NCBI GenBank assembly: GCA_027577595.1 | Contig: JANBRJ010000065.1 | Coordinates: 33,084 to 97,083, forward strand | Length of the DNA: 64,000 bases | Direction: 5' to 3' | DNA from: Coemansia sp. RSA 487 | Taxonomy: Eukaryota; Kickxellomycota; Kickxellomycetes; Kickxellales; Kickxellaceae | Shown here: positions 31,901-54,915 of the stretch, one piece after another | Layout: every line of letters starts with the position of its first letter | Numbering within the stretch: the stretch's first letter is position 1 | Notes under the pieces: generated by a model | Seen by the model: the letters and a program-made list of their open reading frames with translations, nothing else | Database searches by the model: none | What the model was told of the DNA's origin: nothing | Program-made: the position numbers and the translations under genes

Positions 31901-34426
31901 CGGGTGCTGGCTCAGGTCCTCCGACAAAAATGCCGACATCTCGCCGTACAGCGTGCAGTTGTGGAGCTTGAATCCGGGAGATCTAGGGACAAGCTCTTCG
32001 GCACGGGTATCTGGTGTCATCGAGGGAGTCTTCAGCGCAATCATTTGCACTTGGCCGACAGAGACGCGGATAAATGCTGTCGAATCCTTGGATCGCCGCT
32101 GATACTCGCCCTCAAAGCCTTGCGCAAACATGTCTCTTGTGGTCTCGGACCATGCATAATCCGCGCTCTCGTCCTTGCAAATTCCTTCGTCTTCAGAGCC
32201 TCCAGTTTTGGCACTCGATTTGGCGGGCTCCGCTGAATCGTCCTGGTGGTCTGCTTGCAGCCTCGCGGTGCTGACTCGGGATCCAATGCCACTGCTAATC
32301 GAATTCCACATGTATCCGTATTCGACCTCAATGTTCCTCTGTCGCCATCTCAGCATTGCAGGCGTCCTGACAATAAGGTCCTTTTTGTCTGGAGTTAGTG
32401 GCAGATCAAACACAAGCTCTGTCGCGCGTAAAGCAATGCCGACATGCTCCATGCGCAGCTTGCTAAGAACCTCGTGCAGCTGGAACAGCATGCGGTTAAC
32501 CTGGTCGCGCGCATAAGCTGCATCGGGGCTAGAATTGCTCGGTTGGCTGGTGGTGCTAGCTGCAGCTGGCGGGTCTCTCGCTGAGGAGCTGTTTGGATCC
32601 TGGTTGCTGGGCGAGACGTCTCGATCATACTGCTGCAAAATGCTGGCCAGCTGGCTGTTCAGCGCCCGAAGGCCACGTATGGAAAACCCCGATGCACGCA
32701 CAGCAGAAGTGACACACATAACGGCGACCTCGTCCAGCAGAGACTCTAGGATGCCGGCACGCACATGTGTCTGCCCAAACTCTATGTTCTGGTCAACCTT
32801 TTTCGGCAGCCCCCAGAACGATGTGATCACCTCGTTCCTAACAGTGCACCGCTGGCAGTTGATTACAGGCCCGCGATGGTGGGGCTTGTCGCCATCGACA
32901 GAGGGGGCCTTTGAGGGTAGCATATCCTGCATTACAAGCATCTTCACCAGCTCCCACCGCGAGTTCGGGTGCTGCTGAGCGCCCTGGATACCAGGGAAAA
33001 CGCGAATACCGCTCATCTCAAACGCCAACGTAGAAAGATACTTTTGGCTACGATCTCGCATGCCTGGGCGGGACGACAGTCTGTGCAGACGCTCACGAAG
33101 CCGCTTTCTGCTAATAACGTTGCTGGCCATACTGTGCGTATCGGATTCAGACGCATCGGGGCACATGGCTTGCTCGTCAAGCGGTCTTGCACGCCGGATT
33201 TTGGTGACACGCAGCAGCCAGCCAAATATCTCACGCAGGGAGCTCATAATATCGATCTGACTCCACCCCTTGTTTCCGCTGCCTGAGGCGCCTCCAGAGC
33301 GACTGTCGCGAGCAGATTCAGCCCATAGCAAAACATTCGACATGTAAAGTGTGACGCCATGGCCGGCACGCGCCATCTCGTTGCTGCGAACAGTCTTTAT
33401 GCTAATATCGGATACCGATATATCCACCCAGCGCGCAAACAACGAGGCAAAGTACGTGTACGTACGCAGTGTAGTGGATATTTTCTTTGCCAAGTTCGCT
33501 GCAAACTGCTGCGCTTCGTTGTCCAGAACGTGTTTGGTCCGCTGCGAGTCGGTATTGGGATTTTTGGCGTCAGCATCGGAGCTATCGCTAGCTTTAGCGG
33601 AATCGGCCGTGAAGCCCTGTGTTTCTTCTGATGTTGTTGTTGTTGTTGTTGCTGCTGCTGCTGCTGCTGCTGTTTCTGGGAGATCGCTGTCTTCATCTTT
33701 GGTATCAAGACCAAACCACACGGAGTCGTCGGAATCGTCGCTGCTGCTTTCCGGTTTTTGTCCTGGCATCACAAACACCTGAAGATGCACACCACGCGCA
33801 TATAGCTGGAGCCGCTTTGATAAAGCCCCACCGCTGCCGCCGGGACTGACCGATCCGAGCTTCTCGACGTCGGGACTTTGGGCTTCAGCAGGCGGGACAA
33901 AACCCAAGCTGTCGCGTGGCGTCTGGGGTGGCTGTGGTATAGAGCTCGCAACCTTCCCCTCCGATTCGGATCTGTCCACAGACGGCAAGCTAGAATGCTG
34001 GGATTGGAAGTACCTCTTTAGCTGAGTCCATCGTGCGCGCAGCCTGATACGCAGCCGACGCATTGTCCGGACATCAAACCCAACCTCATCGATGCGAAGG
34101 ACAAGCTCCATTTTGTTCTTTAGTCGAAAAGACAAAACGAGACCAGATATGCTTGTTCCTCTGAAGCTACGCACGTCCAGTCCAAAGCCAGAAAGGAACA
34201 TACGGACCGGGATACTCAGCAGCAAGTGCACAATACGTAGCGTTATCAGGTGAATTAGCGGTGTGACGCAAGAAGGGTGCAGAACCAGATGCAGTACACT
34301 TTTGGGTATCCATAGCGCCTTGAGCGTGTCGTATATCGTTGAACCATTATCTAGATATTGTCGTGGCAACGGCAAAAGCACAGATAGTACAAATACTCCC
34401 AGTAGGACTAGGAATGTCAATCGCAT
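19652..34426 (-). CDS. FMP27: FMP27/BLTP2 (Hobbit)-type bridge-like lipid transfer protein, 4924 aa
   Basis: This family forms long hydrophobic grooves that move phospholipids between the ER and the plasma membrane. Residues 1-20 form the expected ER-anchoring membrane helix (RLTFLVLLGVFVLSVLLPLP). Family blocks appear in order: the SW-type region near residue 1600 (HGPEFSLMIHDDPLE) and near 2000 (MQLRDFPFPLFKVPDPY); the GFWDK-type region near 2270-2475 (LSGGVRLSIGISS, KDAYVGCRSSKLHTSVSL); a WPPW-like motif near 3752 that reads WPAW; and C-terminal blocks near 4329 (APVGGISIVERFEVNLFPI) and 4545. Yeast Fmp27 is about 2600 aa and human BLTP2 about 2200, so this copy is nearly doubled by Ser-, Asp/Asn- and Gln-rich insertions. 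Some of these come from DNA repeats at 22684-22748 and 28913-28954. No intron is needed across 14.8 kb. Confidence 0.92.
22684..22748 (-). repeat. 18-bp tandem repeat coding for Gly-Ala-Asp-Ala repeats in FMP27
   Basis: The plus strand repeats (agcatcagcatcagctcc) about 3.5 times. On the coding strand it gives the GADADA repeats of the FMP27 homologue. It lies in a predicted disordered insertion. Confidence 0.85.
28913..28954 (-). repeat. 6-bp tandem repeat (gttgtc)7 coding for Asn-Asp repeats in FMP27
   Basis: Seven perfect copies of gttgtc on the plus strand encode alternating Asp-Asn on the minus strand. The repeat lies in an insertion between the two SW-type blocks. Confidence 0.9.
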
Positions 34427-35862: not shown

Positions 35863-35934
35863 TTTTGACTTGATTGTCGCTTCAACACATTATCCTCCTA
35901 GAAATTGTGTATCGAAGAATGGACGAACCAGTGT

Positions 35935-36474
35935 ATGAACTCGACAGGGGAGATTATTCAGTATCCCTCATTCGAGTACCAGATGCTAATATACCACGAA
36001 TCTGACTTTCAATTCGTTACGCAGGATATGTATCCTCCATCTTTTCGAGGTACTCCTTTAATGGCACAGCTTGTCACTATGGACAGCGTGGAAAATATAA
36101 ACGACATTGTCCAAGACTACGTACAGAACAGGAAAGATCTCAACTATTCTAGTTTTGTTGTGCTGCATGACAATATTTGTGATGTTTATGTTCTCGGACA
36201 ACACTTCATGGATCACTACGGTATTGAGCCGATTGAGGAGGGCGATGCAATCTACATGGACTTTTGGATAGCGAGATACAGATACCACAAAAACATGATT
36301 GTATACGCGATAATGCGTTTTGCGACAGAGAGCTACCACAACATGATAGAAATCATGTCCACCCCACTGGACATTCCAACAGAAGTCGTTGGAAGAGTCG
36401 ATGGTGGATCCATTGTAGGTAGTTCGGACTGGAAATGTAGTGATTGTGACTGCAAGGATTGCCACAGACATTAA
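35935..36474 (+). CDS. unknown 185-aa family, copy 1, with a 2-nt deletion near its start
   Basis: One of three paralogues here (others at 44622 and 45491). The family is about 185 aa, has no signal peptide or membrane segment, carries a conserved core (QYPS.E.Q.LIYHESDF, DIVQDY.QNRKD, VLHDNICDVY, MDFWIARYRYHKNMIVYAIM) and ends in a Cys/His motif (WKCSDCDCKDCHRH). I do not recognise it. The ancestral ATG is at 35919. A 2-nt deletion around 35937-35942 (CTCTCG in copy 3 reads CTCG here) puts that start out of frame with the rest. Translation from the in-frame ATG at 35935 would still give about 179 residues that miss only the first few, so the copy may work or may be a young pseudogene. Upstream sequence from 35863 matches that of copy 3. 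Confidence 0.55.
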   Translation: MNSTGEIIQYPSFEYQMLIYHESDFQFVTQDMYPPSFRGTPLMAQLVTMDSVENINDIVQDYVQNRKDLNYSSFVVLHDNICDVYVLGQHFMDHYGIEPIEEGDAIYMDFWIARYRYHKNMIVYAIMRFATESYHNMIEIMSTPLDIPTEVVGRVDGGSIVGSSDWKCSDCDCKDCHRH

Positions 36475-36556: not shown

Positions 36557-39500
36557 CTAAAAGCGATCTTGAAATTCATTAGTGACAAGAACTGCTGGAT
36601 CATTTGCCTTTACTCGGTATCTGAATGGCGTCACAGTTGTATCCATACGTGGAGGATTCTCAAAACCAGGAACTCTATATGTCTGTTGATTTTGGAAGCA
36701 CACATCGTTAAAACTCCCCCCGATCAGCGCCTGTACAATAAAGTATGACCTATCCGTTTCTGACCGAGCGAACGTTATTGGCCCTCGTTCTGGAGATTCA
36801 TCATCATTCGGATCGCATTTGTTGTAGGGGGGCCTGGCATCCAGGAATTGCCTCCAGTACACCAACCCATCAGCCATATTCTCGTACCAGGGGATGCACA
36901 AAATAGAGGTGTCGTAGGTGTGGATGACTGTTCCCGTATCGAGTCTTTCCTTTCGATATCCCTCGTACATGGCATTCATCGGAAATTCATCCCTCCCGTC
37001 TCTTTGAAGGGAGTTAACAGTGTTGTAATACGGATTGCCTATGCGTCCAGACACTCGGACATCATGCTCCAAGGGACAGCCATTATGCATTTGAAGCTGG
37101 AAGCGTTTAGGTTTTCTGTCTGAATTTGTTGAAGGCAATCCCCTGCTGTATATGAAGGCCCTCCTGTTAAACATGTACTTGTACGCATTACACGCGACTC
37201 CAAGAGAATGACCTTCCCTGTTTATGTAGTAAACTGGCAAGACGCACCGCTTGTTTCCATCATCGTCCTCTTCCCATGACCTTGTGACTGTCCTATAATT
37301 CCCAGTGATGGCAGAATGTACTTGCGTCTGTGTCAAAATTGCTGTGTTTGGACAGGTATTCGTGGCGAGAGGAGAGATGATAATGGTTGATGTTCTTTGG
37401 GTCGGTCCTGGGTCGTTGGCAGCATCTTCGACTTCTAAATCCAATTTGTCAGCAATTACTTCTTTGATGATTTCGGCCTCGCTTACATAGTCATCCAGCT
37501 CGTCTTCCAGCGTTGTGCCTTTGTTAAAAAACCACACGTACTGCTTATTCCATCTTTGCAGTGCCTCGAAAGATATATAAATAAGCGCACTCCCGGCAAA
37601 GGAAATGCCTCCAATCGTTGGTGCTGCAAGTGTTGCTACGGCAATGGCGACAAGTACTTGATTTTTTCGAAGATGCAGCTTGGCCATATCAGCAAGGACA
37701 AGACTTTCAATAGTACGTGCCGCTTGCGATGGGTCAGCAACGATGCTGTACAGGTTGTTCTTAACCAAGCCTGCGTAGTTTGCAGCGTTTTCGGTTATTG
37801 CCTGAGCACCACCGGCTATATCTAACGATATGTCTCTTTTCGTGACACTGGTTTGACTGAGGAAGGTTGCCTTGATATCTAGCAGCTGCTCTATTCTCTG
37901 TGAGGGGTTGAGTTGAAGTCTGATGAGAGTGGCATTGTCAAGAGATCGCAGATCTTGCACCACTTCGTCTATCCACGATATCAGCGCTGGCCCTTTGTTT
38001 GGACAGGAGCTCTCAATAAACTCATCGTGAGTAAGAGATTTGACATCGCAAGGATCCGCTGCAAGCCCACCATTATCATCACTGATGTCTATTGCCCACA
38101 TAACTGTACCTCCAAGATTCATGTTAATCGCAAGCTGCTCTCGCTTGTCCAACTGTTCGGGCGTGTTGAACGCAACCCACTGGTCGGTATCGTAGAGCAT
38201 GATCTGCGAGTCGGCGTCGACATACTCGTCACGCATGCGGTTGGTCCCGCGGATGCGGTTGATCTCGGCAAGCGCGAGGTATCCAGCAGTGCCTGTGCAC
38301 GGACCAGGCGTTGCCTTCGACAAGCTGGTAGTCCCAGTAAACGTGCAATTTGGTCCAGAGCACGAGGGATCGCTTTGCTGGAACGAGCGACCATATGCAG
38401 CCAGCCCAAGTAGAACCTTGTTGCCAGGCACTCCGGCATGAGTAATCAGATTAAGCATGCTCGTCGTCTCCGTCCAGTTGACATGCGACATCAGATACGG
38501 CCCAGTATACTGGTTGTCGTGGTCCCACTGGCCGTGCAAATCGTATGTCATAAAGACAATGTAGTCGACTACTGCGCTCATCTCCGCAATTGGGAAAGAC
38601 TTGAGATACCAATATGACGCAGGAGCCGCCATTGACAGGGTCTTTCCTTGGGGTAGTCTATTACGAACCTCTTTCAAAAACGCGAGATAATTGGCGCCGT
38701 CATCGGGCTGGCCCGCCGGAATGCCAGGAATATCCGGTGCACCGGGATATTCCCAATCAATGTCAATCCCGTCCAAGCCGTTGCTGGTCATAAAGTTCAC
38801 CAGGTTCTGTGCGGCCGTGGCGCGGTTTGCAGGCTGCACCATATTACGTAGATTTACGTATGTGGAAGGATCGGTACTGATGCCCCATCCGCCAAAGCTC
38901 ACGATCTTTCGTTTGCTGATCTTCTTGAAGCGGCTCCATTGAGCTGTCGCAAAGGTATCAAGGGTCGGTTGCAAGGAAGCATCGATATCGGCAAACGAGA
39001 AATGCACATGCGTATACTTGTCAAGATTGAGCTCGTCCACGTTGCTCTTCAGACACGGCCAGCCCTGGTTCCACGACTCGTAGTACCCAACGCTGATAAA
39101 CTGGCTGGGCGGGCCCGACTTGACAAACTCGATGTCGCAATTGCTGAGGCATCCCGTGGTGCCTGGTGCACCGGTCGTGCTGTCTTTCTTAGCACAGAAC
39201 TCGGAAGTCAGCCCACAGTATCCAAATTGACTGCAGCATGCCTTGAGAGGACACTCGCTGTTGTACTTGTCTCCAGGAGCCAAAGGACCGCATTCGGCAT
39301 CTGGGTCGGGCGTAGGGCGTGGTGGAGTTCCGGGACTCACGCAGACCTTCATTCCTTGGCCTAGAAACGCGCACCCTTTCCACCCAAAGGTACCGGCATT
39401 CCATTCTTCGATGTTGTCGTTGGTGATGCCATACATGCCGGCAATGTCGCTACAGTACTGGGATCCGCTCTGGGTGTGCACATGACAGGTGCCGTCTGCG

Positions 39501-39727
39501 TTTGCGGTGAAGGACGGTTTTGTACAGCATACAAGCTGCCCAACCTGGATGCTTGGGCACGAAGGGTTGTACTGATTGAACGTGTTCTCGGAGATATTGC
39601 ACGTCTGCGCAAGCTTAGCACAACCGTCCCCGCTTTGGACAAACATTCCCGTACATGGGTAGTCGTCAGCAGCTCCAAGTGCAGCGGTCGCTGAAATAAG
39701 CACCAGTGCTCTAAGATTGAATATCAT
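36557..39727 (-). CDS. secreted LysM-LysM-CBM18-GH18 chitinase (killer-toxin alpha/beta-like group), 1056 aa
   Basis: A chitin-degrading glycoside hydrolase family 18 enzyme with chitin-binding modules. The ATG at 39727 begins a signal peptide (MIFNLRALVLISATAALGAA); the frame also opens at a TTG six codons earlier. Order: LysM 1 near 25-68, LysM 2 near 82-130, a CBM18 hevein-like module near 145-177 (CCSQFGYCG), and GH18 from about 205 to 550 with the catalytic motif DGIDIDWEYPG (Glu codon 38750-38752, residue 326) intact. A hydrophobic segment near 690-725 and a C-terminal module follow. The C-terminal module (CDPNDDESPERGP... near 1000) resembles the end of the LysM protein at 41191-43311. 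The architecture is that of fungal subgroup C chitinases, which act on cell walls. The enzyme should be active; its target is unknown. Confidence 0.9.
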   Translation of the reverse strand: MIFNLRALVLISATAALGAADDYPCTGMFVQSGDGCAKLAQTCNISENTFNQYNPSCPSIQVGQLVCCTKPSFTANADGTCHVHTQSGSQYCSDIAGMYGITNDNIEEWNAGTFGWKGCAFLGQGMKVCVSPGTPPRPTPDPDAECGPLAPGDKYNSECPLKACCSQFGYCGLTSEFCAKKDSTTGAPGTTGCLSNCDIEFVKSGPPSQFISVGYYESWNQGWPCLKSNVDELNLDKYTHVHFSFADIDASLQPTLDTFATAQWSRFKKISKRKIVSFGGWGISTDPSTYVNLRNMVQPANRATAAQNLVNFMTSNGLDGIDIDWEYPGAPDIPGIPAGQPDDGANYLAFLKEVRNRLPQGKTLSMAAPASYWYLKSFPIAEMSAVVDYIVFMTYDLHGQWDHDNQYTGPYLMSHVNWTETTSMLNLITHAGVPGNKVLLGLAAYGRSFQQSDPSCSGPNCTFTGTTSLSKATPGPCTGTAGYLALAEINRIRGTNRMRDEYVDADSQIMLYDTDQWVAFNTPEQLDKREQLAINMNLGGTVMWAIDISDDNGGLAADPCDVKSLTHDEFIESSCPNKGPALISWIDEVVQDLRSLDNATLIRLQLNPSQRIEQLLDIKATFLSQTSVTKRDISLDIAGGAQAITENAANYAGLVKNNLYSIVADPSQAARTIESLVLADMAKLHLRKNQVLVAIAVATLAAPTIGGISFAGSALIYISFEALQRWNKQYVWFFNKGTTLEDELDDYVSEAEIIKEVIADKLDLEVEDAANDPGPTQRTSTIIISPLATNTCPNTAILTQTQVHSAITGNYRTVTRSWEEDDDGNKRCVLPVYYINREGHSLGVACNAYKYMFNRRAFIYSRGLPSTNSDRKPKRFQLQMHNGCPLEHDVRVSGRIGNPYYNTVNSLQRDGRDEFPMNAMYEGYRKERLDTGTVIHTYDTSILCIPWYENMADGLVYWRQFLDARPPYNKCDPNDDESPERGPITFARSETDRSYFIVQALIGGSFNDVCFQNQQTYRVPGFENPPRMDTTVTPFRYRVKANDPAVLVTNEFQDRF

Positions 39728-39973
39728 CTTAAAGCTAGATCTCAAAGATACTCGGTAGTCTAGTTTTCAATGCTAAAATCCAAATAAAAATGTTTATCAA
39801 GACCAAGTATTAGAGTAACAGAGGGAATAAACGAAAAAAAACACCAAGAAACTAGAAAATTCACGCTTTAACATGTTGCAGACTGCGACATTTAGAACGA
39901 TTGACATATGTATCTGGCAATTTAGTGGGAATCGCTCTTCCTAAAGCTCAGCACAACGATCCAAAATATGTTT

Positions 39974-44145: not shown

Positions 44146-44621
44146 TCTAATTGAGTAGCTACAATAAATAGATACCCTGGCAAGTGATGTTAATAAAAAA
44201 TTGTGAACCGAAGAGACTTTCAAAGCAGCATGCAACCAAGGTCCAACATTTCTCTTGTTCGCCGTGGTCACCATTTTATAAGAAATGTTTTTGGGCTGTT
44301 GTCCATCATTTGCTGAATTACGCAAATCCTGGGATTTCCGTGTGGTCACAGAAATCTGCTGGTGTGTCTGATAATTCGCAAGGCGGATTTTTTTGCAAAC
44401 AATCCAGAAACGCTTAAACCTCAATTCTCTGCTTTCTTTCCTGGTTTTATTTGGTCCATTTCTTTCTATTAACATACTTAATATCTTCTTTATTTTATGT
44501 AGTATTTTGAGCTGCCTACCATTTACGCTATAGTTACCTAACATTATATAGAGAGAAAGTAAACATCTGCTATATAACTTTACTTTCAGACGCAATACCA
44601 CTAGAAAAGGCCTATCGAATA
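44146..44621. promoter_or_regulatory. divergent promoter region between secreted protein and family copy 2
   Basis: About 475 nt between divergently read genes. TATATAA-like sequence at about 44571 lies 50 nt before the ATG of copy 2. The minus-strand gene has TATTTATTGTAG about 15-25 nt upstream of its ATG. No other gene seen. Confidence 0.4.
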
Positions 44622-45179
44622 ATGGACAAACCAGTTTATGACCTCTTCACAGGAGAGATTGTCCAGTACCCCTCATTAGAGTTCCAGCTGTTAATTTATC
44701 ACGAATCAGACTTTCAGCTTTTTACCAAAGACATGTATCCTCAGTATTTTGAAGATGCACCTTTAATGGCACAGCTTATCAAGATGGACAGTGTGGAAAA
44801 CATAAACGACATTGTCCAAGACTACCTACAGAACAGGAAGGACCGCGAGTACCCTAGCTTCATTGTCCTGCATGACAATATATGTGATGTTTATATTCTT
44901 GGACAACACTTTATGGATCGTTGCGGTATAGTGCCTATTGAGGAGGGCGATACAATCCACATGGACTTTTGGATAGCGAGATACAGATACCACAAAAACA
45001 TGATTGTATATGCGATAATGGACTGGGCGATGGAGGACTACATCAATATGATAGAAGCCATGTCTAGCCGAGAGGATATTCCAACTGAGGTTGTTGGAAG
45101 AGTCGATGATGGGTCTATTGTCGGAAGCATGGATTGGAAATGTAGCGATTATGACTGCAAAGATTGCCACAGACATTAA
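44622..45179 (+). CDS. unknown 185-aa family, copy 2 (intact)
   Basis: This is the only undamaged member of the three paralogues in the window, with ATG, 185 codons and stop. It begins MDKPVYDLFTGEIVQYPS, keeps the core LIYHESDFQLFTKDMYP, DSVENINDIVQDYLQNRKD, VLHDNICDVYILGQHFM and MDFWIARYRYHKNMIVYAIM, and ends MDWKCSDYDCKDCHRH. The end carries three Cys and two His in a short span, a possible metal site. It has no signal peptide or transmembrane segment, so it should be intracellular. It is more diverged from copies 1 and 3 than those two are from each other. No function can be assigned. Conservation of reading frame while two relatives decay suggests selection on this copy. Confidence 0.65.
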   Translation: MDKPVYDLFTGEIVQYPSLEFQLLIYHESDFQLFTKDMYPQYFEDAPLMAQLIKMDSVENINDIVQDYLQNRKDREYPSFIVLHDNICDVYILGQHFMDRCGIVPIEEGDTIHMDFWIARYRYHKNMIVYAIMDWAMEDYINMIEAMSSREDIPTEVVGRVDDGSIVGSMDWKCSDYDCKDCHRH

Positions 45180-45490
45180 ACATTTGCACCTTTTAAAAAT
45201 GAAGTGTTGAAATAAAATGATAATATAAATTGCTTTGTTATTGAGTGCTAACCATTATAATGAGATGATAATTGTTACCATACAAGATATTTACCCGTTT
45301 GCCTGAAGCAGACATTGTTCTGGTGATTTGCTAAACCTATTAACGTCAGCACGCAAAGCGAATGTATATTGTGGATTGACATTGCACATCACCAATTTCC
45401 ATTATTTGTCTAGCAATTTTCATTATTAATATTTTTTTGACTTGATTGTCGCTTCAACACATTATCCTCCTAGAAATTGCTTATCGAAGA
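45180..45490. other. intergenic region between family copies 2 and 3
   Basis: About 310 nt, AT-rich. The last 60 nt (from about 45431) match the sequence upstream of copy 1, so the duplicated unit includes its leader. No gene. Confidence 0.5.
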
Positions 45491-46048
45491 ATGGACAAAC
45501 CAGTGTATGAACTCTCGACAGGAAAGATTATTCAGTATCCCTCATTCGAGTACCAGATGCTAATATACCACGAATTTAACTTTCAATTCGTTACACAGGA
45601 TATGTATCCTCCGTCTTTTCGAGATACTCCTTTAATGGCACAGCTTATCAAGATGGACAGCGTAGAAAGTATAAACGACATTGTCCAAGACTACGTGCAG
45701 AACAGGAAGGAGCTTAACTATTCTAGTTTTGTTGTGCTGCACGACAATATTTGTGTTGTTTATGTTCTCGGACAACGCTTCATGGATCACCACGGTATCG
45801 AGCCTATCGAGGAGGGCAATACAATCTACATGGACTTTTGGATAGCGAGATACAGATAGCACAAAAACATGATTGTATACGCGATAATGCATTTTGTGAC
45901 AGAGAGCTACCATAACATGATAGAAATCATGTCCACCCTACTGGACATTCCAACAGAAGTCGTTGGAAGAGTCGGTGGTGGCTCCATTGTAGGTAGTTCG
46001 GACTGGAAATGTAGTGGTTATGATTGCGCCGATTGTCATAGACGTTAG
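45491..46048 (+). pseudogene. unknown 185-aa family, copy 3, broken by an internal stop
   Basis: The ATG at 45491 opens a frame that keeps the family N-terminus (MDKPVYELSTGKIIQYPS) but stops at TAG 45857-45859. At this place copies 1 and 2 have the Tyr codon TAC inside ARYRYHKN. The frame continues after the stop, with the family C-terminus and a stop at 46046-46048 exactly 185 codons from the start, so the single base change is the only break seen. The product would be 122 aa and lack the Cys/His end. It is very close to copy 1 in sequence, including its leader, which shows a recent duplication. Confidence 0.7.
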
Positions 46049-46292: not shown

Positions 46293-46703
46293 ATGAACAT
46301 ACAATTTCCAAAAGTTATTTACGTGACAATGAATGCGACACAAACAAAATTCGGAATCCATCATATTCGGCTAGATCTGCGCTCCTACACCACAAATAGC
46401 AAACCGTCAATGTCGTTTCAGCAGTTTATCCAACGCGGCAAGGTTCTGACAATGTACCGCAAGTACATGCGGCTGCTCAACCGGATCCCAGAAAAGTCAA
46501 CACGCAAGGAGATGCGCGAGTGGATCCGTGCCGACTTTGACAGATACAAAGGCGAGGCTGATCCGCAACGCATCGATATTTTGCTAGCTCAGGCCAGCCG
46601 ACAGTTCAAGGAAATGCAATCGTCTATATGGAACGCCCAGAGCAAACGATCCGTTATAACACGTATAGTTGGTGGCGGTAGTGGTGGTATTGGCCGAGGA
46701 TAG
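46293..46703 (+). CDS. LYRM2: LYRM2-like mitochondrial LYR-motif protein
   Basis: A small complex 1 LYR-family protein. Such proteins bind the mitochondrial acyl carrier protein and help assemble respiratory complexes; LYRM2 has been linked to complex I. The LYR-type motif is LTMYRKYMRLLNRIP, followed by the family pattern EMREWIRADFDRYK, DPQRIDILLAQASRQFKEMQ. Two starts are possible: ATG 46293 (136 aa) or ATG 46329 (124 aa). The second gives a better presequence (MNATQTKFGIHHIRLDLRSYTTNS: basic, no acidic residues before the Asp), so the shorter form is favoured. The C-terminus is Gly-rich. This is a conserved gene inside an otherwise accessory stretch. Confidence 0.82.
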   Translation: MNIQFPKVIYVTMNATQTKFGIHHIRLDLRSYTTNSKPSMSFQQFIQRGKVLTMYRKYMRLLNRIPEKSTRKEMREWIRADFDRYKGEADPQRIDILLAQASRQFKEMQSSIWNAQSKRSVITRIVGGGSGGIGRG

Positions 46704-46967
46704 AAAAAGAGAAAACACAAGCAATTAATAAAAAGTTCAAACAACGCAAACGCAAACACAGGCAAGGAAATATTTCTTTCCCTTCCCCCCATCATAATAT
46801 TTATGTGTTCGCAGCTTTTTTCACAGCCAAAAAAGACATGCATTACAAAACATAAAACATCACAAAACACACAAAAACGCATGGCAAAACATGAGAAACT
46901 TGCCTGCCAAGGACCTCCGATGACCACTAACATGTGGCAACCAAAGCCTTGTATTTGGAATTAATTT

Positions 46968-46990
46968 CTGCCCAGAACCGTTCTGGGCAG
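46968..46990. repeat. 23-nt near-perfect palindrome 39 nt beyond the Fanzor stop
   Basis: Arms ctgcccagaac and gttctgggcag are exactly complementary over 11 bp with one central base. As RNA from the minus strand it would follow the Fanzor coding region directly. Hairpins next to the 3' end of TnpB/Fanzor genes are typical of transposon ends and of the guide RNA scaffold; that role here is inference. Confidence 0.75.
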
Positions 46991-47029
46991 TTGGAGTGCA
47001 ATAGCACCCAGAGAAAAACATGGCTGATG

Positions 47030-49283
47030 TTAAGACTGCTGCTGCGATGTCACTGAACGGAGCTTCATTCTGGGCTGCGCTTTTGCTGAACGAGGCTTCT
47101 TTTTGGGCTGTGTAGAGACACTGACAGATCTCTTGGCGCCTCTCGCGGGTTTCTTGGGTTTCCTTGCCGGCGGAAGAGTGGTACCACGCCTAAACCGCTC
47201 AGGCCGCTCATGTGTTTGGCGCAGACTATAGAGGATATGCCTGAAATTCAATACAGCAGCAAGATCTCTGTTCCAAAACCGAGCAGCAGGCTCTTTCCCG
47301 AGATGCTTAGCAGGCTCCATGCTATCTGTCACGTACTCCCATTTTTTGTTTTGACACATTAGGAGTCCATGGCAAGTAACATACTCACGCCTATCCTCTT
47401 TTGGGTAGGGCCTTGGGTTTGGAACCAGTTCTTCAGGATGCACAAGCCTGTCTTCGCAACAACCAGGGCAGAAAGTCGAGGTGCGGAATTCGTCCAACAG
47501 GTACACTTTGAACCTATGCTTTCGCAGCATCCTACGCATACCTACACCTCGGATGCGCTCGTGGTACTTGCACATACCAGCAAACCAGTTTCCAAGAACC
47601 AGAACAGGATCAGGACCAAACTGTTCACGGATAAGGTTGGCAAGGACATGGTCTGCCCTTTGGCTGCTAAGATAGGCAGCCAAACGCAGCTGCCAATAGA
47701 GAGGTTTCTTGTTCGTTGTGCTGTTTGTCTGAGTGCAGGAATAGAACTTGCTCAAAAGGGGCCACACCTCAGCCTGGACCTCAATGAACCTCTTGAACTG
47801 ATCAAGGTCAACAGTGGTGCATGGAACCTCAGCCAGGCGCTGCTCTGCCTCAATGATGGCATTGTCAGGGTACATCTTCTTGGCTGCTTCGAGGATCCTG
47901 CGGAACTTGGTAGAGCGAGTCAGCTTGGCCTTGTGATTGCGCGTAAACCGGAATAGCCATGGATTCCCAACGGAGCCATACTCATGCATGCAGAACAGGA
48001 GGCCCCGCCTGCCTGGGTCGATCAGCATACAGTTGCCCTCCATTGCACACAGCTTGTCTTGGCCGATTGATTCAATGTACTCAAACTCAAATCCATCTTC
48101 ATCCTTGCCCTTCTTGGTCTTTGGCGTCTTGGTCGTAGCAGTACTGGCAGAGCCAGGTGTCTTGATGTCGCTGGTCTGGTCTGTGCTGTTGGTGTTTTTC
48201 TTCTTGGCCTTGCACTTCTTGAAAATAGAGATCGACACACCATCTGTCTGAACTGAGCCTTCAAAAACCTTGCCACTCTGTTTGCTCTTGACTACCCGGC
48301 AGTTTATGTCAAGGACCTCACCCCAAAGGTCATTTGTAAGCTTCTGTTCCTTCTTGATGCCGCCAAGGAACCACTGACAAAGGATAGCCTTGTCAATGTG
48401 GACATGGCATGGGATCCACTGTGTGCGAAGTGGCATGCACTGGAAGCTGCGGGGCTTGTTTTGCTGGAAGAACCGAGCCAGGAGAAAGAAGGCTTTGACA
48501 TGCTTGATAGGGTCGCACTTGATGTCATAGTAGAGACCCTTTTCGCTGAGCGCATCGTTTTCGTAGATGTCGAATGCTGATTGAAGATCCTTGACCCGTT
48601 CATAAATGTGTGCATCCAGCTCAGCTTCGACGATATTGCCTCGCTTAACACATTCCTTGGCCTTGTCTACTGGCCCCCACACCTCAGCTCTTAGGGTATC
48701 TCGGATAGTATCAGCTGATGCGCCAGCAGCCTTGAGCTCAATCCTCTTTGCAAGTGCTTCGATCTTTGACCTACAGAGCATGTTGACAGCTCTGCGTAGG
48801 CAGTTTCCGAGGTTATTCTTTACTGATACAAGGAACGCAGTGTGTATCTTCTGGGCCTCATACCCAGCTATCTGGGCCATGTACGGCTGCTTTTGCTGCT
48901 TGATACGCGACAACTTGACATACACATCCCAGTGCTTGGCTATCAGGGTGCGAAACTCTAGTATCTGGCTGGTCGTTTTCCGTTTCCGATTTGGCTTTGG
49001 ATTTCTTTGTCTTTTTCCTTGCTTTACCAACAGCCTTGGCTTTTCTACCATTGATCTTCAAGATCACTTCCTTAAAAAAGGAAACACAGACATACCGGTC
49101 GAGCTTGAAATTGATGTCCTCATGAAGCTCGTGTATGAATATCCAGCGAGAAAAGTTATAAGAATGGCGAGTGTTGTAGTTTGCTGTTTTTATAAGCTTC
49201 CGAAGTGGTGCCCTGTACTTGCGGCGCCAACTGATGGCCTGCAAGGGCACCTTGACAACACACACCTCGTCGTTGCAAGCCAT
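47030..49283 (-). CDS. Fanzor (eukaryotic TnpB-like RNA-guided nuclease), with a frame change near its N-terminus
   Basis: Fanzors are eukaryotic relatives of TnpB and Cas12, RNA-guided DNA nucleases spread by transposons. The main frame (49051 to 47030, 673 codons) has RuvC-I CMLIDPGRRGLL (Asp codon 48017-48019), RuvC-II-like VLVLGNWFAG without the usual Glu, then DEFRTSTFCPGC (Glu codon 47489-47491), and RuvC-III WNRDLAAVLNF (Asp codon 47264-47266). Zinc-binding Cys pairs CPGC and CHGLLMC lie between. A Glu shifted into the DEFRTS position is the rearranged catalytic site known in Fanzors, so the nuclease core looks intact. The N-terminus (MACNDEVCVVKVPLQ from ATG 49283; FKEVILKING) is in another frame, with the switch in a Lys-rich stretch at about 48990-49060. 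This is either a 1-nt indel or a short intron. A basic C-terminal tail resembles a nuclear localisation signal. Confidence 0.85.
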
Positions 49284-49592
49284 GAGGTGTGCGTGCAAAA
49301 AAAAAAACAAAGAGCTGAAACGTTAGATTTTAGGTTTTTTTGTATTTATAGGAATAAAAATGAAAGTATACGGCAAAAGAGAGGGATATACGCGGAAAAG
49401 GGCATTGTTCCCCATTCTTTGTAATTTTTTTCTGCAAGTGGTTTTTTGGGCATTCTGGCTATAAAACAGCTGCGAACAGGAGTTTTTTTTCTTTTCCGGT
49501 TCTTATTTTTGAAATTGCAATAGTATTGATTACAAGACATATCGAGCTAAACAACAGCAACCAGACGGCCACCAACCAGAGCGAACTTCCTC
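49284..49592. promoter_or_regulatory. divergent region between Fanzor and the LINE ORF1-like fragment
   Basis: About 310 nt, T-rich and A-rich, with a TATAAAA at 49460-49466 on the plus strand, 127 nt before the ATG at 49593. A run of 11 A lies at 49297-49307, just upstream of the Fanzor ATG. No transposon end was recognised on this side. Confidence 0.4.
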
Positions 49593-50567
49593 ATGATTAC
49601 AGAGGAAGAATCAACGCTGCAGGCAATGCCTCCAGGAGAGGTTGGGCCACCTGAGCCCAGGGCGGGTCTAAGAAAAGACCTATCTGAAAACGAGGAAGTG
49701 ATAGAGTCAGGATCGGAGTGTTCAGGATATGAGGACGAAAGAGCAGCGATGCTGAAGGAAAGGACTCGTCGCCTTAAAATGGAGACAGAAAAGGTTATCA
49801 ATGAAGAAAATGACCTAGATCTTCTAACGGACAAAGAGAACGAGAAGGTGCTGTATGAGCTAACAGACTTTTGTGTGCCTGGGTCACAGCAGCGCAGCAA
49901 ACAAGACCTGGAAAAGGAGACCAAAGCCAAAGCATTCCAGGAGATAGTAGACAAGAGACAGGCAATGATGGCAGAAAAGGAGACGAAGCATAAGAAAAAG
50001 CTTGAGCTGGAGACCCAGCTGTCAGAAAGATACAAGGATATCTTAGCACTGGACAACAACCTTAGGACGATCATGACGGAGGAGGTAGCAGCAGAAGCAG
50101 AGCTCTGGAAGTGCATCCAAGGGGAGGATATGATAAAGAAGCTGGAAGATGCCCAGAAGAGCAGAAAGGTGGCAACGCAAACAGTAAACCCACTGGCCAT
50201 GGTAGGGAGCTCGTACGCGGGAGTGGCAAGCAGATCAGGAGCAGTGCTGAGAAACCAGTACCCACCGCCACTGCCAAATGCCCAGCAATAGTACTATGGA
50301 GGCAAGAAGAGCGTCATAAGGAAAGTGGCACTTCTAAGTACAGAGCAATACGAGGAAGCAGAAAAGGAATACATGCTCTTAGAGTGGGTGGCAAAGGATG
50401 ACACCCATGCAGTCCTGACTGTGGGAGGCATCTACGGAGGCTATAGCCGCCCAGAGTTCAAGATGAAACACCTCCTGCAAAGCAATGTTGGCCCAGAGAT
50501 CCGGGTGGAATGGGTAGAGGGAGCCTCTGCATCTATGATAGAACTGGCAGTTCCAGTAGGAGAATAG
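49593..50567 (+). pseudogene. LINE ORF1-like coiled-coil protein broken by an in-frame stop
   Basis: The ATG at 49593 opens 232 codons with long Glu/Lys-rich helices typical of a coiled coil (roughly residues 45-200), then a Pro-rich linker and TAG at 50289-50291. The same frame continues to 50567 with a compact segment (ALLSTEQYEEAEKEY..., VGGIYGGYSRPEFKMKHLLQ, PEIRVEW). Two halves in one frame separated by a single stop point to a nonsense mutation or, less likely, readthrough. The layout and the mobile surroundings suggest ORF1 of a non-LTR element, but there is no Cys-knuckle or clear RNA-binding domain, so the family is uncertain. An ORF2 does not follow. Confidence 0.45.
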
Positions 50568-51472
50568 GCACTGACATGCAGTTACCTGTCATTAAATGGG
50601 ACCAAGATCTGCCCAAGGCTAATGCCAAAAGATCCCAGGCCTGGGGGCAGCAGGACAGGTATCATGCTAGAACACGATCATGGAATAACAACTGGCAGTA
50701 TATTACTGCTTGCGCGTTGTCCGCCAGGTTATGGGACATTCGCGCAGTGAGATTCGAATAAGCCACGATCATATATGTGAGGCTTTGAAATTCACCCACT
50801 CTGATGACTAATATCAGGGATACGTGGATGAGAGTTACATAAAATACTTCTTGATACCACATCCATTAGAGATCGACATCTCTTTTTGGGTATTGACCAG
50901 CTTTGGCTATTGAATAGATATATTTATTAACATTTGAAAAGGATCTAAACAGCACGATCCGTCCCAGCCTGCTTGCAGTTGTATCATTACATTGTATAAT
51001 TGAAAGAGCTGCTTTTCTTGAAGCTAGGCTCAATTATATTTACTTTGAATTCCATTGAATCAATGTTCAGGGGTTAATCCATACATACTTTCTTTAAAAT
51101 CGATTATATTTGTTGGTCTCGAGTATATTCATTTCTCCTGAAAAGTTTCATGCAGTTTTACGAAATACGTTTTGACTTTGCTTGTATGATTATTTTCAAG
51201 CCAGTTTCAAGTAGTTATATTTTTTAATTAAATTAAAGCAGCCACAATCACCAGAGGGTATAATGGCATATTTACCTTTTTAAAAGGTAAATAAAACAAC
51301 TAATGGAATGGCAATTGTATCCAAGAAAAGCTGGACATAAAATTTTCATCCCCTCTTCCTTAAACACACCTTTCTTAGTTCTTTCTTTTACATACTTTTG
51401 TTTTGGTATTGCCAATAGTTATTCTAAACGCCTTTCAAATGCCACTTGCTATATTGTTTATTCGTATTCAAA
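50568..51472. other. AT-rich stretch with no gene seen
   Basis: About 900 nt. The first 190 nt have fairly balanced composition and may be the continuation of the mobile fragment (a short frame encoding KWDQDLPKANAKRSQAWGQQ). From 50762 the sequence is strongly AT-rich without coding potential. Around 51276-51293 is a small perfect palindrome (ttaccttttt / aaaaggtaa). Confidence 0.4.
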
Positions 51473-51814
51473 ATGACTAGTAGCAACGAAAACACAAAAC
51501 ACCCGTCTCCGAAAAACACGTCAGAGACAAGCTCATCCACCATAAATAAGCTACTTGTTGCAATGCTTGAGAAGCAGTCGGCGGCACTTGAAAATTTCAT
51601 GAACTCGTAACAAGAAGCAACAAGGGAGCAAAATGCAGCTATACGCGACCTTACAAGGACACTGGAAAGCAGCTTTTCGCGCCTTGGCATCGGTTCAGCT
51701 CAGCATTCAGTGAATAACCCTATTATCAATTTTCCATTGGTAGGTAGAGTTAAGGATACTCCGTTACATATTGCAAACTGTACGCCCCAAACTTCAACTA
51801 CTTTAAACAGTTGA
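51473..51814 (+). pseudogene. possible retroelement gag N-terminus remnant
   Basis: From ATG 51473 the frame reads MTSSNENTKHPSPKNTSETS, then a helix (INKLLVAMLEKQSAALENF), a TAA where CAA would fit (51608-51610), and EATREQNAAIRDLTRTLESSFSRLG before the next stop. A Ser/Thr-rich start followed by a coiled helix with Gln/Glu is common at the N-terminus of LTR-retroelement Gag proteins. There is no capsid or zinc-knuckle domain, so this is weak. Confidence 0.25.
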
Positions 51815-51889
51815 GTACTAATATTGTTATCTTCATTAGTTTTAATAAACCTACATTTGCTTACTCTAATAGCCTGATTATATGCTGGG

Positions 51890-53813
51890 TACTCCGACGA
51901 GAACAAGCCAAAAAGGCGCTCAAACTCGTCTATCCAGCCTATGCAATCAACGCCTATGAGCTACATCCAAGAGTCAAAAAACAACGCCACTGGATACGTA
52001 AAGTTAGCGGACTCTTATAGCCGTGACATTTTCCCGGTTTCTCTTAAAGTTCTTGTTAGCCATATAGGCCACGAATGATCTGGAGCGTTTGTATCTGCGA
52101 AGGATAGCCTGTCTTACGCCAGTGATATCAAGTCGATTTTTGAGAACTTTAGCCTCGCAAGCCCGGGCGCAGGGGATGTACTCGACAAGAATAAAGAGGA
52201 GATATACCAAGACAAACTGACTATGCTGATGGAGATAATCGACGAGCATGTGCGAAGCAAATCGAACGGAACGGTTGGGCTTCAATGGAAAAATACCCAC
52301 AGCGAAGTTATGTCAAACAAGCGCAAACCGTATGGTGTCCTCCATGTCTGCGAGACAGGTATCACCAAAGAGTGGGCAGACATAACAGTGTCATTTGAAG
52401 CGAAAAGCGACAGTTTCAACTCGAGCTCGAAAGAGCTCCAAGGACAGATTTTGGCAAAGTTCCGGAACATGGCGCATGATCAGCTATGTCGTTATTCGAT
52501 TAGCTTTGGTATTTCCAAAGGAGGTGAACTGTACGTGTATCTTCGCAAAATAAGCGAGGTCTACTACACACGGCTTGGTCACATCCCTTGTCTCAGTGCA
52601 TCGGAGAACGAGGTCGATAGTGCCATCATGTTCTTGCTGTTACTTTATAGGCAACTTCCCAAAGATCATCACGGGTTTCTTGTACCCAAGAACTGTAGAA
52701 TCTTCGAGCCTTTTTGTGCCAGCGACATTTAGCGGAAGACGCCGCAAGATTGTTGGCTCGCGCTCGTGGCTATACTCTACGATCACTGGTGTTGACACCA
52801 AGGCCAACCGTGAACAATGTATGCTTAAATTGCATTGGTGCTTGCGCGACCTGTCCGAAGCACGGATCCACAAGAGAGTAATGGGACTGGATGTGCCGCA
52901 TACACCGCAACTTATCGATTCTGCGACTATACAAATCGACGCTACAAATGCTTATATCGGCGAGATCCTTTTGATTGAAGATAGCGGTATTGAAATAAAC
53001 CGGTTCCTCATCAACCTTGACTCAAGTAGTGTCCACAGAGTTGTGGGTGTTTTTGCTGGCTATTTGCACACACTTCTGGTGGCGGCTACTGGCGATAAGT
53101 GTGAATACATCCTCCACAGAGATATGTCCGCCGGAAATCTGCTTGTAAAGGGCTCTAAGCCCTATGTGATTGAGTGGGGCTGTGGGCTTGTTGCGAAAAA
53201 GAACGAGTCTCGAACCCCATCAACCATTTCAGCGGTAGGAACAGCACCCTTCATGGGTATTCGCATCCTTAATAAGTCAAACTGCCGCTCGCTTCTGGAA
53301 GATTTAGAATCACTGTTCCTTGTCCTTTCGTATTGCCTGTAGAAAAAGTACGGGGATGGTAGTAACACTGCACGAAAGGACGATTTTGCGAGGATGTGGA
53401 ATAGCGCTCTAGATTCAGATGACATGATCGACACACGTAACAAATGGCTGGCCAAGAATGACAAGTATTGGGGGACGATGAACATTCAAAAATGCCCGAA
53501 TTTTCTCAAGGCGCTTGCCATTGGTATGTACGACCTACTGTTTTCTGGCTATGGCGCTCTTATCAGCGATCTTGCTGGCATGCCGATAGATCCACGTCTC
53601 GCCGAATTTAAGGCAGGACAGTGGGCAAAGGTATTCAGGGACGCCGCAAATTTGGCCAAAGAGGAAGAGTGTTCCGGATTTGTACACATGGATTTGCTTT
53701 GCAAGTACGTGCACAGCAATCTAGACTGCGGACAGTGCGAGTTAGCTCAGCTAGCGCCATTGGAAATGGAAACATCTAATATAGGTGGCCTAAAAAGGGA
53801 CTCAAGTTACTAG
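51890..53813 (+). pseudogene. FunK1-type fungal protein kinase, decayed
   Basis: The region translates as one kinase of the FunK1 group only if several breaks are ignored. The N-terminal part (Pro/Ser-rich, then DSYSRDIFPVSLKVLVSHIG) is interrupted by TGA 52076-52078. The frame continues through ENFSLASPGAGDVLDKN and WADITVSFEAKS to about 52700-52735, where the reading shifts by one base into VPATFSGRRRKIVGSRSWL. The catalytic lobe then has LHRDMSAGNLL (HRD-type loop) and VIEWGCGL in the place of DFG, the GT.PFM element and LEDLESLFLVLSY. A TAG at 53340-53342 cuts this frame, which resumes as ARMWNSALDSDDMIDTRNKW and ends at 53813. FunK1 kinases are expanded in some fungi; this copy has at least three lesions and should not be functional. 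Confidence 0.7.
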
Positions 53814-53879
53814 GACTCAGATCAGGAATCCAAGTCACGTAAATTAAGCTCATAAATAGTTTATCCTAGTTTACAAGAT

Positions 53880-54915
53880 AGCAATTATGAATTTCGCATA
53901 CAATGGTTTAAAAGAAACATCATACCCAGGCTCACTGATCAAAAAAATCGAGCGGTCAGTGGTAGCAGAACGCCTCTTGGTGCCAGTGCGAGTGGCGCAT
54001 TCGTAGGAGCAGGTCGAAGAGGAGGATATCCAGGATGTATTGGCGGCTGGCGGTTGGTTCTCGTTTGGAGACGGCAGATACCAGGCAAATAATTCATTCA
54101 GCAAAACATCAGAACGTGACTCCACGGAGCGATCCCTGGGGTACAAGTTGCTGTTTGGCAGTGTCTCGGCGATGGTGCGACAGACAACATGTTACCTGCA
54201 AGCGTATCTGGAGCCAGAAATGAGGGGCTGTCTGCGGGACGACTCTGACGAGGCACCAGTAGAAACGCTGGCACACTTCCTGGAGTGCACAATAGGAGAC
54301 CCAGAACAGCGTACACAGCCGCCGGGCCTGGCAGAGACAACATGGATGGACGAGTTTGTCGGGCAAAGGACCATTATGGCCAGCATAACACAAAAGAGTA
54401 GAAGGGAGATTACCGCCGCCCTACAGCAGGACTTGCGCCAGTTCCAGCAGACGGCACAAGAACCAATGGCCGCCATAGTGAGATCTCTACTACAACGGGC
54501 GTATAGGCAGCGACTGGCATACGTGAGAGAGGTGGATAATGAGAAACGAGAGACAAGTTGACAGAGAAGAAAACTCGAGCATGCGGCCGGACCGACGACA
54601 ACAGCTGATGAAGGAGAAGTAGTTAAGGACACGCAGAGCCACCGACGGGGTGCCCAGGTGGCGGCGTACAAAGATTGGTGATGTATAGTTCAAAAAACAT
54701 GCCACATCGGTGTTTCAAAAGACAACGGGTTTACAAGCTTCGTAAAATATCTACCATGATTCAATTCATATAGCTGTGAGGTTAGCGCTGCTACCCTTTA
54801 ACTGGTTTTTTTAGCACGGGACCGTCCAAACTATTTGGGTATCTTGGATCTTTTAATACTGGAGTTTGCCCAAAACTTTTACTGCACCCACGTGGATAAT
54901 AAATTCAGTACATCA
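53880..54915 (+). mobile_element. 5'-truncated non-LTR (LINE) element, 3' end, copy 2
   Basis: Diverged relative of the element at 34820-35862 in the same orientation. The coding end matches at protein level (LIKKIERSVV, SLGYKLLFG, AHFLECTIG). The 3' tail (about 54690-54910) is about 90% identical by eye: cacatcggtg.ttcaaaag, ttcgtaaaatatct, agctgtgaggttagc, tactggagttt, cacgtggataataaattcag. It ends with one ggataataaattcag unit near 54892. The segment lies immediately after the decayed kinase. No target-site duplication could be seen. Confidence 0.6.
53881..54561 (+). pseudogene. LINE ORF2 C-terminal fragment with in-frame stop
   Basis: The frame carries the same tail protein as copy 1. 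A TAG at 54004-54006 stands where copy 1 has CAG (Gln in NPQEQIE). After it the frame stays open to 54561 and contains ERSLGYKLLFG, MRGC, and LAHFLECTIGDPE, the Cys...His...Cys part of a zinc-knuckle-like end. Dead remnant. Confidence 0.5.

Follow-up and report, generated by a model that had tools for sequence, protein, structure and literature searches.

Does the Fanzor gene in a 64,000-nucleotide stretch of the Coemansia sp. RSA 487 genome (the window; positions 33,084 to 97,083 of contig JANBRJ010000065.1) still encode a working nuclease, and to what kind of element does it belong? A sequence-only reading had described, at positions 47030 to 49283, a Fanzor with an intact, rearranged RuvC site that could be active and that lay in a fungal retroelement island. 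Fanzors are eukaryotic relatives of the RNA-guided DNA cutters of the CRISPR type. The analysis reported here points, very probably, to a Fanzor1 mobile element with many copies, of which this one is in decay, while intact sister copies would be RNA-guided with an omegaRNA behind the stop codon.

The gene lies on the reverse strand and is split over two reading frames. The main frame (47030..49057, 675 aa) encodes most of the protein, the RuvC and zinc-finger regions included, while the N-terminal coding part (48961..49283) is read in another frame, which spans 48858-49283 with its ATG at 49283. A HMMER search of the PDB sequences matched the main frame to PpFz1 (E 1.5e-86, in two stretches covering query residues 31-449 and 456-624) and SpuFz1 (E 4e-37), with only a chance match (E 0.2) besides these up to E 1; searched separately, the N-terminal frame matched the N-terminus of PpFz1 (E 3.6e-10). 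The AlphaFold model of the window protein is of low confidence (mean pLDDT 54.5) and was used only for a fold search, in which, poor as the model is, the best six Foldseek matches in the PDB were chains of PpFz and SpuFz, with E values of 2.4e-28 to 4.3e-16 and TM-scores of about 0.4, followed by Cas12j (E 1.5e-3). The Fanzor identity proposed earlier was therefore borne out by alignment and by structure prediction, PpFz1 and SpuFz1 being nearest in both. Judged by these nearest solved structures the gene is a Fanzor1, an assignment resting on PDB sequence and fold matches rather than on a tree with Fanzor2.

The closest solved relative by sequence and fold is PpFz1, the Parasitella parasitica Fanzor 1 (PDB 9cf0-9cf3), which has the DPGRR, VLGNW, DEFRTS and WNRD motifs in common with the window protein. 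Residues 991-1098 of PpFz1 (about 106 chain residues) face only 6 in the window protein, and this surplus may correspond to the published FRI insertion. Unlike PpFz1, the window copy has its N-terminus out of frame and lacks the last zinc cysteine. Pfam names no family for either Fanzor frame; PF26935 was given for relatives in the protein search. P0001, a 646-aa protein predicted in Coemansia sp. RSA 1843, agrees with the main frame residue for residue over 95% of its length. A large protein search, in which scoring was confined to the 7995 candidates with most words in common, listed 17 homologues, each under the name Coemansia or Rhizopus; one scan of viral contigs confirmed no viral relatives. 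Could the match instead reflect an unrelated transposase domain, or the TnpB of a bacterial contaminant? No evidence was found in favour of this. Fanzor1 proteins top both the sequence and the fold matches, the homologues listed come from the two fungal names above, and of 19 other ORFs of the window submitted to Pfam, nine match a family above its cut-off (LYR, SNF2, sterol methyltransferase, DHHC, RhoGAP and a fungal kinase are examples), so the probability left for such an origin is practically negligible.

All four motifs named in the sequence-only reading (IDPG, VLGNW, DEFRTS and WNRDLAAVLN) were found in the main frame. The RuvC-I aspartate is D347 of IDPG (48017..48019), the rearranged RuvC-II glutamate is E523 of DEFRTS (47489..47491), its canonical place being occupied by VLGNW, and the RuvC-III aspartate is D598 of WNRD (47264..47266), all on the reverse strand; the numbering starts at the first codon of the main frame, and the 345, 521 and 596 of the earlier reading result from starting at the first Met instead. 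HMMER aligned the three acid motifs to LMDPGRR, DEFRTS and WNRD of PpFz1 and to IDPNKR, DEYKTS and WNRD of SpuFz1. Exactly six residues separate E523 from C530 of the first zinc CxxC, which is the spacing described in PMC10711439, where a DPG motif and a RuvC-II glutamate six residues before the zinc CxxC are given as the Fanzor hallmark. The three catalytic acids are thus present and the relocated glutamate follows the known Fanzor arrangement; none of the acids fell outside its catalytic position and no unrelated transposase matched. The rearranged site is real, and since it is the Fanzor rule as published (PMC10711439), it is no novelty of this gene. The aspartate following RuvC-I is replaced (DPGRRD to DPGRRG) in the window copy alone of the seven copies compared; P0006 likewise has glycine.

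The integrity of the rest of the protein is another matter. The change of frame near the N-terminus, which the earlier reading had noted as a possible intron, is real and was placed near 48,960 (site 48955..48965, reverse strand), where a DNA alignment with 10 paralogs gave a two-column gap out of frame and no intron-sized insert. An intron at this place was rejected, the window being shorter there than all ten aligned paralogs. That the gene is intact and spliced is extremely unlikely for further reasons: six close paralogs read through the place in one frame, and splicing would leave the zinc-finger damage described below untouched. The deposited model P0001 does start, with MS, just before ILEFRT and so unlike the open frame there, and for this protein the annotation program may have spliced.

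The zinc finger is damaged as well. Of the two cysteine pairs named in the earlier reading, the first (CPGC, 47459..47470, reverse strand) is intact, but the second (47339..47356, reverse strand) has lost its last cysteine: the window has LLMCQNKKW against LLMCQNKKC in the paralogs (CQNKKC in all six aligned), so that the fourth zinc ligand is missing and the complete C4 zinc finger present in the six paralogs is absent from the window copy. A CCCC zinc finger conserved in SpuFz1 and TnpB is given in an Extended Data legend of PMC10432273. PpFz1 and SpuFz1 also have the last cysteine, as do eight of the nine other rows of alignment A3 with the HGLLxC motif (five further rows stop or diverge short of it). 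The exception, P0014, parallels the loss in the window copy, and the loss of this cysteine may therefore be tolerated.

Because the N-terminus is out of frame and a zinc-finger ligand is lost, it is unlikely, to judge from the coding sequence, that the window copy makes a working nuclease. The RuvC nuclease cannot be called intact, given the frame change, the missing zinc ligand and the DPGRRG replacement, and the suggestion that this copy could be active is likewise not supported; its intact sister copies are the likelier enzymes. We read the window copy as a pseudogene that was probably inactivated recently. Its private changes (19 nonsynonymous and 12 synonymous) give a ratio of 1.58, the highest of the seven copies (others 0.47-1.38), against a ratio of about 3 that we estimate from the numbers of sites for a neutral copy, and its pairwise dN/dS to the six paralogs is 0.19-0.28. 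As both sets of ratios are still constrained, the decay would be recent or incomplete.

The same observations bear on two further explanations. The frame change could conceivably stem from a mistake in base calling or assembly, and if the N-terminus were whole the protein might perhaps be active with an altered zinc finger. The remaining frame, open over 675 codons, and the low dN/dS to the six paralogs are in keeping with this. The zinc cysteine loss and the Asp-to-Gly change at RuvC-I are independent of the frame change, though, and the agreement with P0001 offers no independent check, as that protein may share the same assembly; an intact and active gene hidden by an error is thus improbable. 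It is very unlikely that a truncated or frame-changed product has been kept for another role, for instance as an RNA-binding regulator of the intact copies. Such a role would fit the 675 open codons and the partly constrained ratios, but no selection specific to the window copy was seen and its private ratio is the highest of the seven. Recent inactivation of one copy in a family still under constraint remains the preferred reading.

This family is large. The search for further copies, a protein search of the 17.8-Mb genome (184 contigs, the window being C65:33084-97083), returned at least 75 matches at approximately 56 loci or more, where matches closer than 3 kb were merged into one locus and both counts are lower bounds, 66 of the 197 candidates having been scored. 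Such a multicopy presence in a eukaryote (at least 75 matches, about 56 loci) is what one expects of a mobile Fanzor1. Seven near full-length paralogs share 83-87% protein identity with the window protein. Six of them have an open frame of 763-816 codons without stops, the one on contig C41 carrying an internal stop, and a conserved start Met is in frame in five of these six, the exception being L022 on C54. Some more distant copies (34-50% identity; two on C57 and one on C60) likewise remain open over about 750 codons. For seven copies, dN/dS is 0.15-0.28 in each of the 21 pairs, which we read as purifying selection on the Fanzor family. Other copies, several of them intact-looking, are therefore plausible as active enzymes on the evidence of their sequences, rather than the window copy, which is a broken member of a rich and partly intact Fanzor1 family. 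In the 39% families a shared 3' end was looked for: L016, L019 and L020 share the non-coding sequence after the match, and L015, L017 and L018 do not align there. Contigs C81, C41, C54, C144, C151 and C38 start inside Fanzor sequence of distant groups, where the assembly was probably broken by repeats.

Directly after the stop codon of the window gene lies a conserved, non-coding stretch of 125 nt (46905..47029, reverse strand) ending in TTGGCA, a candidate omegaRNA scaffold. A DNA search of the genome found it conserved at 17 places including the window, and 19 copies (these 17 with L023 and L037) align at a mean column identity of 86%. At the TTGGCA border mean pairwise identity drops sharply: it is 0.64-0.94 over the 40 nt within and 0.22-0.33 over the 30 nt beyond, as counted over 13 copies (L037 and five copies with the repeat X described below being omitted) with the border placed one base earlier, at TTGGC. 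For SpuFz1, a 75-nt scaffold with a variable guide of 14-15 nt downstream of the gene, as well as ghost loci lacking the ORF, are described in PMC10432273, and the border in identity observed here may be that expected between scaffold and guide, by analogy with SpuFz1. The would-be guide position of the window copy (46885..46904, reverse strand) has nearly the same sequence in L027, L030 and L039.

Folding the window scaffold together with 15 nt of flanking sequence gives -51.8 kcal/mol (z -4.62). The 19 copies have a mean z of -2.95 (range 0.29 to -4.81), whereas 18 ORF tiles average 0.14, the lowest of them reaching -2.89, and four downstream tiles lie between -0.78 and 1.56. Two of the 19 (L033 and L037) fold no better than shuffles, and L031 and L041 are only weakly better. 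Covariation gave no support for the omegaRNA fold, as in pair counts shuffled columns equalled real ones on every measure and RNAalifold found no two-sided change in the scaffold alignment. Pairing holds in 92.1% of cells for the named structure and in 33-47% for slid versions, but that structure was derived from one of the sequences. Rfam held no match for the stretch. A covariance model run on 38 sources (including the more distant Fanzor loci L015-L020 and L028) gave 26 matches, namely the 19 training copies and seven short ones, the latter being the other strand of a palindromic hairpin. What is new here is this 125-nt conserved, strongly folding stretch behind the stop, from which we infer a transcribed omegaRNA that may be used with a guide.

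The scaffold stretch also occurs without a usable Fanzor ORF. L039 and L042 are clear ORF-less copies; in L041 no more than the final part of the ORF remains, and L040 runs into the end of its contig. In L042 (C6:25500-26800) a 5' repeat is joined directly to the omegaRNA-like stretch with no Fanzor gene between them, giving an internally deleted, ghost-like copy.

A possible mechanism can be put together as follows. The intact sister ORFs (about 740-750 aa) would yield an RNA-guided nuclease of the PpFz1/SpuFz1 kind, and the transcript behind the stop would carry the omegaRNA. Its scaffold would be at most 125 nt long, with TTGGCA as its last bases, and the guide after it would come from whichever DNA flanks the insertion. 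With a guide of that origin, the nuclease would cut the allele in which its insertion site is still uninterrupted, and repair could then copy the element back in; the window copy may still supply omegaRNA for intact copies elsewhere. What the analysis shows is the homology, the alignment of the catalytic acids, the damage, the number of copies, the selection on the family, and a conserved 3' stretch with a sharp border; transcription of that stretch as an omegaRNA, the use of a guide, cutting and the copying cycle are inferred.

The family resembles SPu-1, the element of SpuFz1 in Spizellomyces punctatus, which as described (PMC10432273; PMC3627910) is a single-ORF element present in dozens of copies, with a conserved non-coding stretch from the stop to the 3' end, variable sequence thereafter and ORF-less relatives. 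Protein identity is also comparable, at about 82% among SPu-1 copies (PMC10432273) versus the 83-87% given above. The differences from the SPu-1 of these accounts are that no terminal inverted repeats were found in the window family, that its conserved stretch is about 125 nt rather than 75, and that only two clear ORF-less copies (L039 and L042) stand against 134 SPu-1 ghosts. According to PMC10432273, no transposase was found between the repeats of the S. punctatus elements, and three other characterised loci show no clear association with a transposase. What Fanzors do for their own elements is an open question of the field. A 17.8-Mb genome with about 56 Fanzor loci, several of them intact, with a readable border between presumed scaffold and guide in many copies and with ORF-less relatives, adds another fungal system suited to comparing guides, empty sites and copying, even if the window copy itself matters little. 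A literature search of open-licence papers found none treating Fanzor together with Coemansia.

The 5' end and terminal inverted repeats of the window family were looked for and not found, and no long inverted arms around the gene were seen in L021, L023, L026, L027 and L030. Several copies have inverted repeats of the type TACAGTGGT-AGCCAATG on their 5' side. In near relatives, what lies between repeats of the TACAGTGG type is no more than some 210 bp of upstream sequence and not the gene; beside the window copy this type is absent, the one match, at 14157, being of a kind that occurs in 14 of 100 shuffles. Inverted arms of 31 nt were seen in the distant L028 (a 50% relative); they are 77% complementary and have TA at the ends. 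The TACAGTGGT-AGCCAATG repeats and the L028 arms recall the Fanzor1 borne by Tc/Mariner elements as described in PMC3627910; unlike in those, the TACAGTGG repeats span the upstream 210 bp and not the gene, and no transposase was noticed in the sequences examined. The Tc/Mariner arrangement, terminal inverted repeats with TA duplications around the Fanzor gene, is matched by the distant L028 alone, and there only in form.

These TACAGTGG inverted repeats are part of a repeat of about 370 bp on the 5' side of several Fanzor copies. The corresponding stretch of L021 (about -3333 to -2962 from the 3' end of the element) was found at about 30 other places among the 40 of 105 candidates scored. Contigs with this repeat include C62, C66, C8, C9, C92, C95 and C119. 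Six of seven solo copies share a longer, different non-coding repeat beyond it. As to whether the 370-bp repeat is a mobile element of its own, no transposon ORF was recognisable by eye at two neighbourhoods.

On the other side of the gene, the scaffold end of the window copy is abutted by a different repeat (repeat X, 46702..46904, reverse strand), present at seven places in the genome including the window. In the window its similarity stops at the stop codon of a LYR-motif gene, and its length is about 300 bp as judged by L043, where it stands without a Fanzor, and L028, where it abuts the 5' side of a different Fanzor element (about 50% identity). In the window, L027, L030 and L039 the left end of X comes immediately after the scaffold end, and in these four copies the would-be guide is the start of X rather than a unique flank; in L036 the left end is partly deleted. 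A 15-nt pattern for this left end in the window, L027, L030 and L039 occurs nowhere else in the genome (one match for the backward control). A Fanzor DNA tree rejected the copies with X as one clade, both for the window, L027, L030 and L036 (p-AU 0.0003) and for the window, L027 and L030 only (p-AU 0.0007); L039 could not be placed and was left out, and no branch was well supported in the 13-row tree and two in the 10-row tree. Given this rejection, the left end of X may be a site of repeated Fanzor homing with the guide inherited from copy to copy. If true, this would mean guide-directed spread of Fanzors into another repeat, but the idea is tentative and at present unlikely; recombination between copies could give the same tree result, and a single gain of X with later losses is also conceivable.

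The retroelement island proposed for the surroundings of the gene was not apparent, as Pfam names no reverse transcriptase in 17 ORFs (two of which are the Fanzor frames). Upstream of the Fanzor another repeat (49483..53900) has long matches on C5, C26, C175 and C43. It is more than 4 kb long, its far end lying beyond the search since the query ended at 53900. It begins at about 49,483, approximately where similarity to the 5' region of the paralogs fades, and is not part of the Fanzor element. Inside this repeat, which is found also on C5, C26 and C175, the stretch 52079-53813 holds a fungal protein kinase fragment, with its PF17667 match in 52554-53342. Elsewhere in the window, three ORF stretches (35902-36474, 44511-45179 and 45446-46048) look alike by eye (PVYELSTGEIIQYPSFEYQMLIYHE...) and have a Cys-rich tail, with 44601-45178 and 45470-46047 being 80% identical as DNA. 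A 1069-aa chitinase-like protein with LysM, chitin-binding and glycosyl hydrolase 18 domains is encoded at 36557-39766.
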